A stretch of DNA of 64,000 nucleotides from the NCBI RefSeq assembly GCF_004023665.1, contig NZ_SAUF01000001.1, positions 1,536,501 through 1,600,500 of the forward strand. The letters are read 5' to 3'. Source of the DNA: Afifella aestuarii. Lineage in GTDB: Bacteria; Pseudomonadota; Alphaproteobacteria; Rhizobiales; Afifellaceae. Both the position numbers and the translations under genes were made by a program. The notes under the pieces were generated by a model. That model ran no database searches. It was given only the letters and a program-made list of their open reading frames with translations, and had not been told where the DNA came from. Below are positions 37,286-44,456 of the stretch, piece after piece. Numbering within the stretch: position 1 is the first letter of the stretch; the number at the start of each line of letters is the position of its first letter.

Positions 37286-38196
37286 GCCTCACCCGCCTCT
37301 GCCTCATGGAATTCCTCACGCGTATAGCCCTGGAGATAAAGAAGGGCGGTGAGGTCGCCATGGCGAATGTCGGCATCCGCTTCGCGCACCAGGGCCGGCT
37401 TGCCGTGGAGGGCGACGCCCAGACCTGCGAGCGCGATCATTCCGACATCATTGGCTCCGTCACCGACGGCGATGACATCCCCTGCCGCGAGGTCGTGACG
37501 GGCGAGGGTCGCCTTCAGCGTTTCGACCTTGGCGTTGCGGCCGAGGATCGGTTCGGCGACCTTGCCGGTGAAACGGCCGTCTTCGTGGAGGAGGCGGTTG
37601 GCGTGGAATTCTTGGATGCCGAGCATTTTGGCGATTTTCTCGGCAAAAATGGTGAAGCCGCCGGAGACCAGAACGGTGTGAGCGCCCGCGGCGCGCATGG
37701 TGGCGACCAGCGTCCGCCCGCCTGTCTTCAAAGTGATGCGTTCCGCCAGAACGCGGTCTGCCACGTCGACCGGAAGATTTTTGAGAAGGCCGACCCGCTC
37801 TTTGAGTGCCGGCTCGAAAGCGAGTTCGCCGGCCATCGCGCGGGCCGTGATCTCGGCCACATGTTCTCCAATGCCCGCCTCGGCCGCCAACTCGTCGATG
37901 CATTCCTGGTCGATGAGCGTGGAATCCATGTCGGCGATCAAAAGCCGCTTGCACCGGTTCGCCGCCGGCATGGCGGCCACATCGATGGCGCCCGGGCCGA
38001 TCACCTGCCGTGCCGCGGCGAGGGCCGATGCGCTCATGCCGGCAAACGGCAGGTCGCAGGCTTCGCCTTCACACAGCCATTTCGGGTTGCCCGCCGCAAG
38101 GCCGGCCCGGCCGAGCTCGGCCGTCACTGCGACGATCAGCTCCTCGGTGACAGGCGCTTTCCGTTTCGAGCCGATCAGCGTTAGGACGGACTGCAT
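37282..38196 (-). CDS. serB: Phosphoserine phosphatase
   Basis: SerB performs the last step of serine biosynthesis, removing phosphate from L-phosphoserine. It is 304 residues including an N-terminal ACT-like domain of about 80 residues. The HAD motif ADMDSTLIDQE carries Asp89 and Asp91, motif II is in VLVSGGFTIFAEKIA, and GDGANDVGMIALAGLG holds motif III/IV. The start ATG at 38196 is overlapped on the other strand by the miaA start codon; AGGA lies about 9 bp upstream. The GNAT gene follows, overlapping by 4 bp. Confidence 0.97.
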   Translation of the reverse strand: MQSVLTLIGSKRKAPVTEELIVAVTAELGRAGLAAGNPKWLCEGEACDLPFAGMSASALAAARQVIGPGAIDVAAMPAANRCKRLLIADMDSTLIDQECIDELAAEAGIGEHVAEITARAMAGELAFEPALKERVGLLKNLPVDVADRVLAERITLKTGGRTLVATMRAAGAHTVLVSGGFTIFAEKIAKMLGIQEFHANRLLHEDGRFTGKVAEPILGRNAKVETLKATLARHDLAAGDVIAVGDGANDVGMIALAGLGVALHGKPALVREADADIRHGDLTALLYLQGYTREEFHEAEAGEA

Positions 38197-39109
38197 GAGA
38201 ATTGATCCTGAACATGTGGCGGAAGGCGAGGTCGTGCTGATAGCGGGGCCTACGGCGAGCGGCAAGACACAGCTTGCGCTCGATTTGGCCGAGGGGCTTC
38301 ACGCGCGGGGCCGCCGAGCCGTGGTCGTCAACGCCGATGCCATGCAGGTTTACCGAGATCTCCGGGTGCTGACGGCGCGTCCGCAGGCGTCCGAGATGGG
38401 CGATCTGGAGCATCGACTTTTCGGACATGTCGATGCGGCGGACCGCTATTCTGTCGGTCGCTGGCTGTCGGATGTCGGTGACGTCCTCTCTGCCGTGCAG
38501 GAGGAGGGAGCGACCGCCATATTCGTGGGCGGGACCGGCCTTTATCTAAAGGCTCTGACGGAAGGCCTTTCTCCGGTTCCGGAGATTGCGCCCGAAATTC
38601 GCGACGAGGTGCGGGCGCGCGCCGAGCGGGAAGGCAGCGATGCCATGCTCCGGTGGCTAGAGACGCTCGACCCGCGGGCGGCTGGGACCGTCAGGCCCGG
38701 CGACACCCAAAGGGCCGTGCGGGCGGTCGAAGTGAAGCTATCGACAGGACGCTCGCTCATCGATTGGCAGAACGAGACGCGCGAGCCGGCGCTCGTGAGC
38801 GAGGCGAAACGCTTCATCCTGCTGCCGCAGCGCGAGGCGGTCTACCGGGCGATCGACAGGCGCTTCGGCGTGATGATCGACGAAGGTGCGCTTGAAGAAG
38901 TCCAGGCGTTGATGGCGCGCGACCTTGCGGCCGATCTGCCGGCGATGAAGGCGATCGGCGTGCGGCCGCTTTCCGCCTATCTGCGGGGCGAAATCGCTTT
39001 CACGGCTGCGGTCGAGCGGGGAAAAACGGAAAGCCGTCGCTATGCCAAACGGCAGCTGACCTGGCTGCGCCACCAATGCGGCGAGGGCTGGTGCGAAATC
39101 CACGCCTGA
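38195..39109 (+). CDS. miaA: tRNA dimethylallyltransferase
   Basis: MiaA transfers a dimethylallyl group to A37 of tRNAs reading UNN codons. It is 304 residues. The P-loop LIAGPTASGKTQLALDLA is at about 16-33, NADAMQVYRDLRVLTARP is the substrate-binding segment, and later motifs include VGGTGLYLKAL, PGDTQRAVRAVEV and ESRRYAKRQLTWLRHQ. ATG 38195 has AGGACGG about 8 bp upstream and is chosen over an in-frame GTG at 38216 with no site. Its first codon overlaps the serB start on the opposite strand. Confidence 0.95.
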   Translation: MRIDPEHVAEGEVVLIAGPTASGKTQLALDLAEGLHARGRRAVVVNADAMQVYRDLRVLTARPQASEMGDLEHRLFGHVDAADRYSVGRWLSDVGDVLSAVQEEGATAIFVGGTGLYLKALTEGLSPVPEIAPEIRDEVRARAEREGSDAMLRWLETLDPRAAGTVRPGDTQRAVRAVEVKLSTGRSLIDWQNETREPALVSEAKRFILLPQREAVYRAIDRRFGVMIDEGALEEVQALMARDLAADLPAMKAIGVRPLSAYLRGEIAFTAAVERGKTESRRYAKRQLTWLRHQCGEGWCEIHA

Positions 39110-39136: not shown

Positions 39137-40579
39137 TCAGGCTGTCGCCGGCGGTGTGGCTTTCCGCGGAACGAACAGCCGATGTTTTGCGCCTGGGCGC
39201 GCTTCTCCTGGCGCTGCCGGCGTCGCCTCCGTTTCGGCGCCGAGGCTGCGTGACATCGAGGAAACGATTACACGACCGAGGCCCGGCCCCTCGGTCTCGT
39301 CGAGCGCATAGCCGATGCCGTTGTCGACGATTTCGATCACGCAGCCCTTCGCCGGATCTTCGACCGCATAGGAGCGAATGAGGATTTCGCCGCGCTCGCC
39401 ATCGGGAAACGCGTATTTGATGGCATTGGTGACGAGTTCGTTGACGATGATGCCGATCGACACGGCATCCTTGCTCGGCAATTGGAACGGTTCAGCCTCG
39501 AGTTTCAGCGTGATCGGCTTGCCCGCCGACAATTCCTGGAGGTCTTCCACGAGCGGCTCCAGATAGCCGTCGAGGCGAACCCAGTCGCGGCCGGCGAGAA
39601 GGTGCAGGCGGCGCTGTGCCGAGGCGATGGCACCGATATGCTCGCGTGCGCCGTCGAGCACCGCTTTGGCTTCCTCGTTGTCGCTTTGACGGGCCTGCAA
39701 GGCGAGGATGGAGGACACCATCGACAGGTTGTTGCCGACGCGGTGATTGACGTCGCTCAACAAAGCTTCGGCGCGCTGGCGCTCGATTTCGAGCTCTGCC
39801 GTTCGTTCACGCACACGCGTTTCGAGCGACGCGTTGGTCTGGTTCAATTCGGCGATGTGCAAGCGCTCGACGCGCTGGATGGCGGTGGCAAGCCCCGCGG
39901 TCGCAAGCAGCGAGGCGGTGATGGCGAGCAGGAGCAGATTGCGGTTACGCCGCTGCAGAGCCTGTCGCTGAGCGAGATGGCGGACTTCCTCCGCATCGAG
40001 CTCCCGCAGCTGCTGCGCGATGCCGTTGGAGATGGTGCGCCCCTGCTGTTCCACCTGGGCGCGGGCAGCATCCCGCTGACCAGCCGCAAAAAGCTCGATC
40101 GTCTCATCCATCTGGTCGAGCCGCTGCCGGATAAGAGTGTTCGCGGCGTCGAGACGGGCCGTCTGGGGCGGATTGTCGGAGAGAAGATCGTGCAGTTTCT
40201 GGACCTGATCCGGCAATAACGCCACGGCCGGCCGATAAGGGTTCAGATATGTCTGGTCGCCGGTGAGGAGATAGCCGCGTTGGGCGCCTTCCGCCTCCCG
40301 CAACGAGCCGAGAAGGGATTCGATCTCGCTGCGCACCCGCAAGGTATGTTCGACCCAGTCATCGGTGCGGTCGGCCCGTACGGTCAAAAAGAGAATCGCA
40401 CCCACCGACAAGAGCAGCAGGCCGAAAAGCGCCATACGCGCGAGCATGATGCGGTTGCGGGCTCGGCCGAGTGCTGCGCGCCATTTGGAGTGGCGCTCGG
40501 GCGTCATGGTTACGTCCATCGTTCCGTCGATGCTCATCCGAGCCTGCCATCCCTCATCCTTGTCTGAGGCGGAACTCAT
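39137..40579 (-). CDS. CHASE3 sensor histidine kinase, HisKA_2 type
   Basis: This 480-residue membrane kinase has a transmembrane helix (about 45-67), a CHASE3-like periplasmic helical bundle (about 70-210), a second helix (213-235), a short coiled coil, and a HisKA_2 phosphoacceptor box DVNHRVGNNLSMVSSILALQ with His279. The catalytic domain has NELVTNAIKYAFPDGERGE (N box) and EIVDNGIGYALDE (G1). The G2 area GPGLGRVIVSSMSRSLGAE departs from the usual LGLRLV form. ATG 40579 gives the most plausible N-terminus. It is divergent from a single-domain response regulator starting at 40699, its presumed partner. Confidence 0.9.
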   Translation of the reverse strand: MSSASDKDEGWQARMSIDGTMDVTMTPERHSKWRAALGRARNRIMLARMALFGLLLLSVGAILFLTVRADRTDDWVEHTLRVRSEIESLLGSLREAEGAQRGYLLTGDQTYLNPYRPAVALLPDQVQKLHDLLSDNPPQTARLDAANTLIRQRLDQMDETIELFAAGQRDAARAQVEQQGRTISNGIAQQLRELDAEEVRHLAQRQALQRRNRNLLLLAITASLLATAGLATAIQRVERLHIAELNQTNASLETRVRERTAELEIERQRAEALLSDVNHRVGNNLSMVSSILALQARQSDNEEAKAVLDGAREHIGAIASAQRRLHLLAGRDWVRLDGYLEPLVEDLQELSAGKPITLKLEAEPFQLPSKDAVSIGIIVNELVTNAIKYAFPDGERGEILIRSYAVEDPAKGCVIEIVDNGIGYALDETEGPGLGRVIVSSMSRSLGAETEATPAAPGEARPGAKHRLFVPRKATPPATA

Positions 40580-40698
40580 CACGCATCGCGCCATTGGCAA
40601 TAATGACAAGGAAAGATGACAGGGAAGGGGCGAGACAAATTGCGTTGTTTCCTAATGCTTAACCGCAGCAGGGAGGCAAAGGCAATCTCGCCGGTGTT

Positions 40699-41100
40699 AT
40701 GATGGTGCAACAGGCTCGTATTCTTCTCGCCGAGAACCAGCCGCTGGTGGCACTCGATTTCGAATTCGCTCTTTGCGACGCGGGCTACGAGGTTCTCGGA
40801 CCCGTCGGGGAGCTGACGGAAGGGCTGCGGCTCGCCGAGGAAACGAGGCCCGATGCCGCGGTTCTCGACGTGCAGCTTGCGGATGGGCACGTCTTCCCGC
40901 TGGCACGAGCGCTGATGGCCGCGGGCGTGCCGATTATGTTCGTCACGGCACATGTCGCTGAAGAACGCATCTGGCCGGCTACCTTCCGGAATTGCCCGCG
41001 CCTTGGAAAGCCGGTCGATCCTGAGGTTTTCCGACGCACGGCGGCGGGGCTTCTCGCGGCCCGGGAGGACGAGGCGCCGGCGGGCGTGGCTGTGGCATAA
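40699..41100 (+). CDS. Single-domain response regulator
   Basis: This 133-residue receiver domain has no output domain. Phosphoacceptor Asp57 is in AAVLDVQLADG, the acidic pair is near the N-terminus (AENQPLVALDFE), Thr83 lies in FVTAH and the conserved Lys104 in RLGKPVDPEV. The closest pattern is the CheY-like receivers that partner HWE/HisKA_2 kinases in alphaproteobacteria. It is divergent from the kinase gene, separated by about 120 bp. It probably works in a phosphorelay or by interacting with another protein. Confidence 0.9.
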   Translation: MMVQQARILLAENQPLVALDFEFALCDAGYEVLGPVGELTEGLRLAEETRPDAAVLDVQLADGHVFPLARALMAAGVPIMFVTAHVAEERIWPATFRNCPRLGKPVDPEVFRRTAAGLLAAREDEAPAGVAVA

Positions 41101-41111
41101 GATTCTTCCGC

Positions 41112-41140
41112 TTGACCTTGCGGTCGCATCACCCTAGAAG
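41112..41140 (+). promoter_or_regulatory. Predicted promoter of the ilvB leader
   Basis: TTGACC (41112-41117), a 17-bp spacer and TAGAAG (41135-41140) fit a housekeeping promoter. The predicted start, about 7 bp downstream, coincides with the leader-peptide ATG at 41148, so the leader message is likely leaderless, as reported for the trp leader of Sinorhizobium. Confidence 0.55.
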
Positions 41141-41147
41141 CCGCTTC

Positions 41148-41201
41148 ATGTATATCTCGTCGCTTATCGTAATGTTGCGCGCCACCGGGGCGACCTCCTA
41201 G
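41148..41201 (+). CDS. Leader peptide of the ilvB attenuator (MYISSLIVMLRATGATS)
   Basis: This 17-codon frame is rich in Ile, Leu and Val (I3, L5-L6, I7, V8, L10 region: ISSLIVML). It lies between a promoter-like sequence and a terminator hairpin in front of ilvB. Ribosome stalling at these codons under branched-chain amino acid shortage would favour readthrough. The product acts in cis and needs no function of its own. No ribosome-binding site precedes it. Confidence 0.75.
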   Translation: MYISSLIVMLRATGATS

Positions 41202-41252
41202 GTCGCCGCGATTACGGTGGTGCGTGCCAAGGCTCCTTCGGGGGCCTTTTTT
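41181..41252 (+). promoter_or_regulatory. ilvB attenuator: alternative hairpins and terminator
   Basis: Candidate structures are GCGCCACCG pairing with CGGTGGTGC further down, GGCGACC-TCCTA-GGTCGCC just after the leader frame, and a terminator AAGGCTCC-TTCG-GGGGCCTT with a T run at 41229-41252. The first two arms overlap the leader codons, as required for stalling to change the fold. This regulates ilvBH by transcription attenuation (inferred). Confidence 0.75.
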
Positions 41253-41307
41253 ATTGCCTCAAGACACGAGATAACGGTGAGCCCGAGCGGCCAGGCGGAG
41301 AGGATTG

Positions 41308-43065
41308 ATGGGCAAGGAAATGACCGGCGCGGAGATGGTCCTGCAGGCGATGAAGGACCACGGGGTCAAGCATATCTTCGGCTACCCCGGCGGCGCTGCG
41401 CTACCGATCTACGACGAGATCTTCCAGCAGGAGGACATCCAGCACATCCTCGTTCGCCATGAGCAGGGCGCAGGCCATGCGGCGGAAGGCTATGCGCGTT
41501 CCTCCGGCAAGCCCGGCGTCGTTCTGGTGACCTCCGGGCCGGGGGCGACCAATATGGTGACGGCGCTGACCGATGCGATGATGGATTCCATCCCGCTCGT
41601 GTGCATCACCGCGCAGGTCCCCACCCATCTCATCGGCTCCGACGGGTTTCAGGAATGCGATACTGTCGGCATCACGCGGCCTTGCACCAAGTACAATTGG
41701 CTGGTGCGCGATGTGAACGATCTCTCGCGTGTCCTGCATGATGCCTTTCATGTCGCGACGACGGGCCGTCCGGGCCCGGTGGTCGTCGACATCCCGAAGG
41801 ACGTGCAGTTTGCGACCGGCACTTATCACACGCCCGATCCGGCCGGACGGTCGAGCTATCAGGGCTACGAGCCGTGCATGAAGGGCGACGAGAACGCGAT
41901 CGCGCATGCCGTCGAACTGATGGCGCATGCCAAGCGCCCGATCCTCTATACGGGCGGTGGCGTCATCAATTCCGGTCCGGAGGCGAGCCAGCTCTTGCGT
42001 GAGCTGGTGGCGGCGACGGGCTTTCCCATCACCTCAACCCTGATGGGGCTCGGCGCCTATCCGGCATCGGGGCGAAACTGGCTCGGCATGCTCGGCATGC
42101 ACGGCACCTACGAAGCTAATATGGCGATGCACGATTGCGACGTGATGGTGTGCATCGGCGCGCGCTTCGACGACCGGATCACCGGGCGCACAGACGCCTT
42201 CTCGCCCGGCTCGAAGAAGATCCATGTCGATATCGACCCGTCCTCGGTCAACAAGAACATCCGCGTGGACGTGCCGATCATCGGCGATGTCACCCATGTT
42301 CTGAAAGACATGCTCGCCATGTGGACGGCGCGTGCGCCCGAGCCCGATCTCAAGGCCTGGTGGACGCAGATCGAAACCTGGAAGGGGCGGCGTTCGCTGG
42401 CCTATCGGACGAACCGTGACGTGATCATGCCGCAATATGCGATCGAGCGGCTCTATCAGGCGACGAAGGACCGCGACACCTACATCACGACGGAGGTCGG
42501 CCAGCACCAGATGTGGGCGGCGCAGTTCTATCACTTCGACGCGCCCAATCGCTGGATGACCTCCGGCGGGCTCGGCACGATGGGCTACGGTCTGCCGGCC
42601 GCCCTCGGCGTGCAGGTCGCGCATCCCGACAGTCTCGTCGTCGATATCGCCGGCGATGCGTCCGTGCTGATGACCATGCAGGAGATGTCGACGGCGGTGC
42701 AGCACGACCTGCCGATCAAGATCTTCATCTTGAACAATTGCTATATGGGCATGGTGAGACAGTGGCAGCAGCTTCTGCACGGCAATCGCCTGTCGAACTC
42801 GTACAATGAATCGCTGCCCGATTTCGTGAAGCTCGCCGAGGCCTATGGCTGCGTCGGGCTGCGCGCGGACAAGCCTGACGAGCTCGACGACGCGATCGAA
42901 GAGATGATTTCCGTGCGCCGGCCCGTCCTGTTCGACTGTCGCGTGGCCAATCTCGAAAATTGCTTCCCGATGATTCCATCCGGCAAGGCGCACAACGAGA
43001 TGATCCTGCCAGCTGAATCTGAGGGGGCCGAAGAGGCTTTCGCCGGCGGCAAAGCGCTGGTTTGA
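41308..43065 (+). CDS. ilvB: Acetolactate synthase, large catalytic subunit
   Basis: IlvB (acetohydroxyacid synthase) condenses pyruvate with pyruvate or 2-ketobutyrate, the first common step to valine, leucine and isoleucine. It is 585 residues, thiamine-diphosphate dependent. GYPGGAALPIYDE contains the catalytic Glu region, HEQGAGHAAEGYARSSGK and SGPGATNMVTALTDAMMDS follow, and the ThDP motif GDASVLMTMQEMSTAVQHDLPIKIFILNN sits near 455-485. ATG 41308 follows GGAGAGGA. Its leader (41148-41252) should make it sensitive to branched-chain amino acids, and ilvH follows after 142 bp. Confidence 0.98.
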   Translation: MGKEMTGAEMVLQAMKDHGVKHIFGYPGGAALPIYDEIFQQEDIQHILVRHEQGAGHAAEGYARSSGKPGVVLVTSGPGATNMVTALTDAMMDSIPLVCITAQVPTHLIGSDGFQECDTVGITRPCTKYNWLVRDVNDLSRVLHDAFHVATTGRPGPVVVDIPKDVQFATGTYHTPDPAGRSSYQGYEPCMKGDENAIAHAVELMAHAKRPILYTGGGVINSGPEASQLLRELVAATGFPITSTLMGLGAYPASGRNWLGMLGMHGTYEANMAMHDCDVMVCIGARFDDRITGRTDAFSPGSKKIHVDIDPSSVNKNIRVDVPIIGDVTHVLKDMLAMWTARAPEPDLKAWWTQIETWKGRRSLAYRTNRDVIMPQYAIERLYQATKDRDTYITTEVGQHQMWAAQFYHFDAPNRWMTSGGLGTMGYGLPAALGVQVAHPDSLVVDIAGDASVLMTMQEMSTAVQHDLPIKIFILNNCYMGMVRQWQQLLHGNRLSNSYNESLPDFVKLAEAYGCVGLRADKPDELDDAIEEMISVRRPVLFDCRVANLENCFPMIPSGKAHNEMILPAESEGAEEAFAGGKALV

Positions 43066-43207: not shown

Positions 43208-43804
43208 ATGAACGATTCCTCGACCATGACCGGCAAGGCCGCCATGACGCCGCCGGCCTCGACCTATTTCATCGAGGATCGCCAGGACCCGGAGGAGGCG
43301 CATACCCTTTCCGTTCTCGTCGACAACGAGCCGGGCGTTCTGGCGCGTGTCATCGGGCTCTTCTCCGGGCGTGGCTACAATATCGAAAGTCTCACCGTCT
43401 CGGAGACGGAGCATGAGAAGCACCTGTCGCGCATTACCATCGTGACGCGCGGCAGCGTCACCGTTCTGGAGCAGATCAAGAACCAGCTTGGCCGGCTCGT
43501 GCCGGTCCATCGGGTGACGGATCTCACCGACGTGGCGGTGGCGCGCAATCAGGAAAAGCCGCTGGAGCGCGAGCTGGCGCTGGTGAAGGTTGCCGGTCAC
43601 GGCGAGATGCGGGTGGAGGCTTTGCGCCTCGCCGACGCCTTCAAGGCCGAGGTGATCGATGCGACCCGCGAGCATTTCGTCTTCCAGATGACGGGACGGT
43701 CCGCCAAAGTGGAGCAATTCATCTCCATCATGCAGCCGATGGGCCTCATCGAAGTCTGCCGCACGGGGCTTGCCGCGCTGTCGCGCGGACCTGAATCCTC
43801 TTAA
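43208..43804 (+). CDS. ilvH: Acetolactate synthase, small regulatory subunit
   Basis: IlvH (IlvN) is the regulatory subunit of acetolactate synthase, conferring valine feedback and boosting activity. It is 198 residues with an N-terminal ACT domain (TLSVLVDNEPGVLARVIGLFSGRGYNIESLTV, near 38) and a C-terminal ALS_ss_C domain (RELALVKVAGHGEMRVEALRLADAFKAEVID). Start ATG has GAAGGA five bases upstream. It is the second gene of the ilvB-ilvH operon and is followed by a terminator-like hairpin at 43808-43839. Confidence 0.97.
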   Translation: MNDSSTMTGKAAMTPPASTYFIEDRQDPEEAHTLSVLVDNEPGVLARVIGLFSGRGYNIESLTVSETEHEKHLSRITIVTRGSVTVLEQIKNQLGRLVPVHRVTDLTDVAVARNQEKPLERELALVKVAGHGEMRVEALRLADAFKAEVIDATREHFVFQMTGRSAKVEQFISIMQPMGLIEVCRTGLAALSRGPESS

Positions 43805-43862: not shown

Positions 43863-44456
43863 ATGTCGACGGAAGTCGTCTCCGCCCTCATCGTCTTCGC
43901 CGTCGTTGCCTCGGTGACGCCGGGGCCGAACAACCTGATGCTTCTGGCCTCGGGCGTGAATTTCGGCTTCCGCCGGACGCTCCCGCATCTTCTCGGCGTT
44001 CTCGTCGGCTTTGCCATTCTTCTGACGGCCGTCGGGCTCGGTGTCGGCGCACTGGTGGAGCGCTTTCCCGCGCTCCACACGCTGCTCAAGGTCGTGGGCG
44101 GTGCCTACCTCCTCTATCTCGCCTGGAAGATCGCGATGTCGCGTGCGCTGCACGAGGAGAGCGCCGGGCAGGGGCCTCTCACCTTTCTCGAAGCGGCGCT
44201 CTTCCAATGGGTCAATCCGAAGGCCTGGATGATGGGGCTCGCGGCCATGGCCGCGTACACAGACCCTGACCATTATGCGCTGACGCTCGCCATCGTCGTT
44301 TCCGTCTTCTGCCTCGTGGGCATTCCTTCGGCGTCGATCTGGGCAGGTTTCGGGTCAGCCTTGAAAGATTGGCTCAACCATCCCGTCCGCATCAAATGGT
44401 TCAACATCGCCATGGGGCTCGCGCTCGTCGCCTCGCTCTGGCCGATGCTGAAGTGA
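43863..44456 (+). CDS. LysE-family amino acid exporter
   Basis: This 197-residue inner-membrane protein has the family start SVTPGPNNLMLLASGVNFG and about six hydrophobic segments (RTLPHLLGVLVGFAILLTAVGLGVGAL, YLLYLAWKIAMS). It is likely an exporter of an amino acid or derivative; the neighbouring ilvBH suggests, but does not prove, a branched-chain or related substrate. It starts 24 bp beyond the ilvH terminator, so it probably has its own promoter. Confidence 0.9.
   Translation: MSTEVVSALIVFAVVASVTPGPNNLMLLASGVNFGFRRTLPHLLGVLVGFAILLTAVGLGVGALVERFPALHTLLKVVGGAYLLYLAWKIAMSRALHEESAGQGPLTFLEAALFQWVNPKAWMMGLAAMAAYTDPDHYALTLAIVVSVFCLVGIPSASIWAGFGSALKDWLNHPVRIKWFNIAMGLALVASLWPMLK

Follow-up and report, generated by a model that had tools for sequence, protein, structure and literature searches.

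A probable leaderless attenuator upstream of ilvB-ilvH in Afifella aestuarii, with a hairpin that may act by its position beside the terminator

The 64 kb of Afifella aestuarii DNA analysed here (the window) carries, directly upstream of the acetolactate synthase genes ilvB and ilvH, a short leader (ilvL) which is almost certainly a cis-acting, ribosome-mediated transcription attenuator of the two genes, as judged from its sequence and from that of its relatives. The best explanation of the element as a whole, to which we assign a probability of roughly 0.55, is a leaderless attenuator in which the hairpin between the control codons and the terminator would be the ON element and would act by adjacency. 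An initial annotation had described a branched-chain attenuator of ilvBH at this locus, which is borne out by control-codon bias, conservation and covariation, and all of the parts it named (promoter, leader, hairpin, UUCG-capped terminator and T run) were recovered where it had placed them (Table 1). The short leader open-reading frame carries codons for the amino acids whose synthesis the operon serves, an intrinsic terminator sits between this frame and the first structural gene, and in Alphaproteobacteria homologous leaders immediately precede the acetolactate synthase genes.

Table 1 Features of the ilvL-ilvB-ilvH region, in window coordinates.
Feature	Position	Strand	Basis or remark
-35 box, TTGACC	41112..41117	+	Sequence; TTGAC and a 17-18 nt spacer kept in all same-family members
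-10 box, TAGAAG	41135..41140	+	17-nt spacer from -35; 7 nt to ATG
Leader ORF ilvL, MYISSLIVMLRATGATS, 17 codons	41148..41201	+	Predicted leaderless; homologous leaders in the order; ATG 41148-41150, stop TAG 41199-41201
Control codons CUU AUC GUA (Leu-Ile-Val)	41163..41171	+	Codon bias, leader run against ilvB
Switch hairpin	41177..41225	+	Enclosing helix in 130/130 leaders; covariation
Switch hairpin, outer helix	41177-41187/41215-41225	+	Encloses the stop codon
Switch hairpin, inner helix	41188-41196/41200-41209	+	Apical loop holds the stop codon (41199-41201)
Linker between hairpin and terminator, 3 nt	41226..41228	+	Median 4 nt, IQR 2-6, in 130 leaders
Intrinsic terminator, AAGGCUCC-UUCG-GGGGCCUU and U-tract	41229..41252	+	Arms coevolve, own pair stronger in 94%; stem 41229-41248, UUCG loop, T6 at 41247-41252
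ATTGCC directly after the U-tract, conserved	41253..41258	+	Column counts, 133 leaders
SD-like GGAGAGG of ilvB	41297..41303	+	Sequence
ilvB, acetolactate synthase large subunit	41308..43065	+	NF006581, 1149 bits (cut-off 974)
ilvH/ilvN, acetolactate synthase small subunit	43208..43804	+	NF008864, 218 bits (cut-off 119)

Directly 3' of ilvH lies a LysE/RhtB-type amino acid exporter gene (43863-44456), which could belong to the same attenuated operon. On the other side of the leader lies a MiaA reading frame (37697-39109). In several relatives the gene immediately before ilvB has a MiaA-like C terminus (YAKRQLTW), as seen at the upstream ends of three loci; in the window, a histidine kinase (39137-40609, minus strand) and a response regulator (40699-41100) are inserted between the MiaA-like gene and ilvB.

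We collected 195 ilvB upstream sequences, of which 80 came from named loci and the others were taken from complete genome sets for the same family and order. A short open-reading frame with at least three consecutive Ile, Leu or Val codons, followed by a terminator, was present in 160 of the 195, against 5 of 195 dinucleotide-shuffled sequences; named carriers include Sinorhizobium, Rhizobium, Agrobacterium, Mesorhizobium, Bradyrhizobium, Stappia and Pannonibacter. With 68 of these leaders as its basis, a covariance model matched 146 of 199 Hyphomicrobiales genomes (E ≤ 1e-4), and within the Rhizobiaceae-type family it matched 96 of 101. The window's own genome gave one match (E 1e-24); the next best (E 6e-4) was without leader anatomy and was rejected as a second copy. 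Rfam holds no family which covers the ilvL element.

Several matches elsewhere are recorded here as observations in their own right. Second copies of the leader, hairpin and terminator precede MFS transporters in three genomes of different families (L302:239, L305:200 and L293/L300), with VVVGRRMG-type leaders and leaderless-class spacing; the L300 transporter is of the Bcr/CflA family by TIGR00710, those of L302 and L305 are alike by eye, and the L293/L300 element lies ~170 nt before ORF 5083. In the family of L302 the ilvB copy is SD-led, unlike the leaderless-class transporter copy, which hints at transfer of the module. In one genome the attenuator and ilvB are duplicated in tandem, giving two copies of each within 3 kb. 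Outside the order, a match before leuA has a different leader ORF containing LLL (MKMNITAIKLPMHKNGQLLLTQALKAGRL) and is apparently a separate leucine attenuator. Two records titled Mucilaginibacter (a MAG) and Lysobacter contain an alphaproteobacterial-type ilvB, the former being probably a mis-binned contig.

Codon usage in the control run differs sharply from that of the gene it precedes. Across 133 leaders, GTA accounts for 55% of the Val codons in the run vs. 2.1% in ilvB (1.2% in the window genes), CTT for 51% of the Leu codons vs. 7%, and ATT for 54% of the Ile codons vs. 17%; this synonymous bias is strong evidence that the control codons have been selected as sensors. The number of Ile, Leu and Val codons per leader ranges from three to seven (130 leaders), the run in the window being LIV. 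The leader peptide is variable both ahead of its control run and at its C-terminal end, with the control codons and the CGC/Gly region encoded within the hairpin spared from this variation.

Transcription of ilvL is predicted to start at 41147/41148, and the window sequence has no SD motif before the ilvL ATG. A generic sigma-70 scan left the leader promoter of ilvB-ilvH unscored, its sequence and spacing are nevertheless kept within the family. The distance from the -10 box to the ATG of ilvL leaders is bimodal, either 5-9 nt, the class to which the window belongs, or 23-40 nt, a class in which the leader ATG often follows an SD-like motif such as GGAG. The few spacings of 11-18 nt arise where a downstream in-frame ATG was chosen as the start, and the upstream ATG falls in the short class in six loci. 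The trpL leader of Sinorhizobium provides a calibration: its RNA begins at the AUG and is leaderless by experiment (PMC10117765, PMC7298713), and at the homologous locus in our dataset the -10-to-AUG spacing is 8 nt, with 6-8 nt in all 22 scoreable trpL leaders from several families. The leaderless start suggested by the initial annotation is thus well supported by the spacing class and by this calibration, and it is likely that transcription of ilvL begins at the AUG or one base before it. No Trp-rich leader was seen upstream of trpE in the window's genome.

The mode of initiation has changed repeatedly among relatives. On an IlvB tree (a quick tree of 97 rows), the leaderless and SD-led states require at least eight changes, three of which are forced by well supported branches. 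In several families a leaderless trpL occurs alongside an SD-led ilvL, so the start mode is a property of the leader and not of the genome. This exchange within one homologous leader makes the effect of leaderless initiation on attenuation testable.

The leader as a whole folds at -48.8 kcal/mol vs. -39.4 kcal/mol for shuffled sequences (z -2.8). In the ilvL leaders, the outer helix has a median of 9.5 bp (18 pairs in all) and encloses the stop codon in 130/130; it begins 4-5 nt past the last control codon in 96 of the 130, with the stop codon at the apex. When strands were exchanged between leaders, the hairpin strands paired better with their own partner than with a swapped one in 97% of the 130 leaders, and the terminator arms did so in 94%, which demonstrates that this swap test detects real pairing. 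In a structure-guided alignment, 93.9% of cells pair (71.2% when shuffled) and two-sided changes occur in 27 of 28 base pairs, with 350 changed cells vs. 85 in the shuffled control; such an alignment leans towards the structure, the swap test is independent of it. The covariance-model alignment was used here in place of a MAFFT alignment, which did not align the hairpin correctly. ATTGCC (or GTTGCC/TATGCC) is kept directly after the U-tract in most of 133 leaders, although transcription is expected to terminate before it, and within the window TTTTTTRTTG occurs only at the U-tract of the ilvL terminator. The window also contains an imperfect inverted repeat of 13 nt (41153-41165/41261-41273), through which the 5' end of the leader might pair with sequence past the terminator; this pairing was rejected, as it showed no coevolution (z -0.16 ± 0.10).

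The mechanism we favour would run as follows. Ribosomes would start on the leaderless ilvL RNA, as the promoter spacing suggests. With Leu, Ile and Val plentiful, the ribosome would reach the stop codon in the hairpin loop and unfold the hairpin, the terminator would form, and transcription would end near 41252 with a leader RNA of ~105 nt as its product. Under a shortage of Leu, Ile or Val, the ribosome would stall on CUU-AUC-GUA and the hairpin, 5 nt downstream, would form wholly or mostly; folded at the mouth of the RNA exit channel, it would hinder completion of the terminator stem and the polymerase would read on into ilvB. We infer the ribosome-position logic, the direction of regulation and the steric antitermination from the arrangement of the parts. 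That the switch hairpin is the ON element, the simplest scheme by which starvation would turn on the operon, has about an even chance of being correct, and action by adjacency across the 3-nt linker is put forward more tentatively. The hairpin would have to act by its position, as it neither shares bases with the terminator nor pairs with them, and we know of no documented mechanism of steric inhibition by a neighbouring hairpin. Two further points weigh against an ON hairpin: when the last control codon occupies the A site, ~5 nt of the helix would lie beneath the ribosome, so that the hairpin could fold in full only for stalls further upstream, and untranslated RNA would read through, unlike in trp.

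The main rival to an ON hairpin, itself unlikely, turns the sign of the hairpin around. As a pause hairpin or NusA-type enhancer it would promote termination, and a stall at the last control codon would weaken it and cut termination. The fixed gap of 4-5 nt fits such a role, since a ribosome halted at the last codon, most often GTA, would sit on the lower half of the helix. However, a ribosome that has reached the stop codon would disrupt the hairpin as well and, unless it were released quickly, cause readthrough even with ample amino acids, and stalls at earlier codons would leave the helix free.

A weak classical antiterminator is less likely again. In a four-segment, trp-type leader the stalled ribosome masks strand 1, and strand 2 acts as antiterminator by pairing with the terminator's left arm; candidates for such pairing are a weak partial match of GGGGC with GCUCC (41187-41191 with 41232-41236) and an interrupted pairing of CGGUGGUGC with GGCUCCUUCG in nascent-transcript folds. 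The ilvL leaders, however, have no detectable strand complementary to the left arm of the terminator, and their helix usually starts 4-5 nt after the control codons, downstream of them with no overlap. In 130 ilvL leaders compared with shuffles, the best complementarity between the post-stop strand and the terminator arm was below chance (z -0.53 ± 0.08, 6% above one SD), whereas the same code applied to 25 trpL leaders of the same order gave z +2.15 ± 0.25 with 84% above one SD; the leaders are related and the quoted standard errors are therefore too small, but the contrast with trpL is large. In the trpL leaders a GGCGGCC-type strand is visible by eye, as expected. Nor did the two segments coevolve in ilvL: pairing of the post-stop strand was weaker with the terminator arm of the same leader than with arms exchanged from other leaders (z +0.32 ± 0.08), and none of the remaining ilvL strands paired better with the arm than the post-stop strand did. 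Every candidate source of an antiterminator gave a negative result, whether the ORF, its control-codon region, the post-stop strand or the terminator base. Thermodynamic folding with the ribosome's footprint masked favoured the terminator in all states, in the trpL example too, and is hence non-discriminating.

The initial annotation had spoken of a complete attenuator with alternative stems; its parts are present, but stems that would be alternatives to the terminator find no support, as no competing strand was detected by tests which trpL passes. Returning to the adjacency-acting ON hairpin, the avoidance of terminator pairing by the post-stop strand fits this mechanism, because the strand is free when the ribosome stands at the stop codon and must not disturb termination. 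Likewise, the positions of the helices differ relative to the control codons, so that under a stalled ribosome the trpL helix would be blocked and the ilvL helix largely free. A Hyphomicrobiales-wide switch of two hairpins, without an antiterminator, acting by adjacency and with a leader that alternates between leaderless and SD initiation, is a possible generalisation from these comparisons, which we offer with some reserve. Textbook attenuation relies on mutually exclusive hairpins; ilvL, apparently without a competing strand and conserved in many families, model rhizobia among them, offers a clean system in which to ask how a hairpin beside a terminator can prevent termination.

By analogy with Sinorhizobium rnTrpL and peTrpL, the element might instead mainly make a trans-acting leader RNA or peptide, which we regard as very improbable. 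The ~105-nt terminated RNA with its leaderless ORF would be expected, and the precedent is experimental (PMC7298713), but the control codons and RNA pairing account for the conservation, and the residues flanking them vary. Trp leader peptides vary too, with peTrpL peptides keeping a role in spite of it (PMC7298713), so the low conservation of the ilvL peptide speaks neither for nor against a peptide function in trans, which the initial annotation had raised as a possibility. A constitutive terminator behind a chance ORF, with no regulation, can be practically discounted given the codon bias and the 160 of 195 upstream sequences against 5 shuffled ones, although all of the folded states are predicted to terminate.

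Branched-chain attenuators are already known for the acetolactate synthase operons of Alphaproteobacteria, and the abstract of Vitreschak 2004 reportedly predicts branched-chain attenuators for alphaproteobacterial ilvIH. PMC2573895 lists an attenuator prediction for S. meliloti ilvIH, referring to Vitreschak 2004, and PMC4117421 cites a Caulobacter ilvBN attenuator, referring to Tarleton 1994. The window element resembles these in its operon, its branched-chain control codons and its Rho-independent terminator, and the leaders at Sinorhizobium, Rhizobium and Agrobacterium loci are homologous to ilvL. The leaderless start, the exchange with SD initiation and the missing antiterminator are unstated in the literature examined; Vitreschak 2004 and Tarleton 1994, which lie outside it, may propose an antiterminator.

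Rhizobial trpL (rnTrpL, peTrpL) has a leaderless leader ORF, as predicted for ilvL from the close -10-to-AUG spacing given above, and shares with it an intrinsic terminator. In trpL the post-stop strand is complementary to the terminator arm and the helix overlaps the Trp codons, neither of which was detected in ilvL; the enclosing helices of trpL are mostly 4-6 bp and begin 10-43 nt ahead of the point where the Trp run ends (median -26 nt), with a median linker of 10 nt between helix and terminator. The C. glutamicum ilvBNC attenuator gave no sign of homology to ilvL by any test made, and it has a third hairpin before its antiterminator and terminator, which share the trinucleotide GCC (a 3-nt overlap), whereas no shared or complementary segment was detected in ilvL. 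In mechanism it is nonetheless the nearest known system, with a start like that predicted for ilvL, similar control codons and similar hairpin placement: its start codon lies one nucleotide from the transcription start, its control codons include CUU and GUA, and its antiterminator hairpin follows close after them and adjoins the terminator (PMC11857589).
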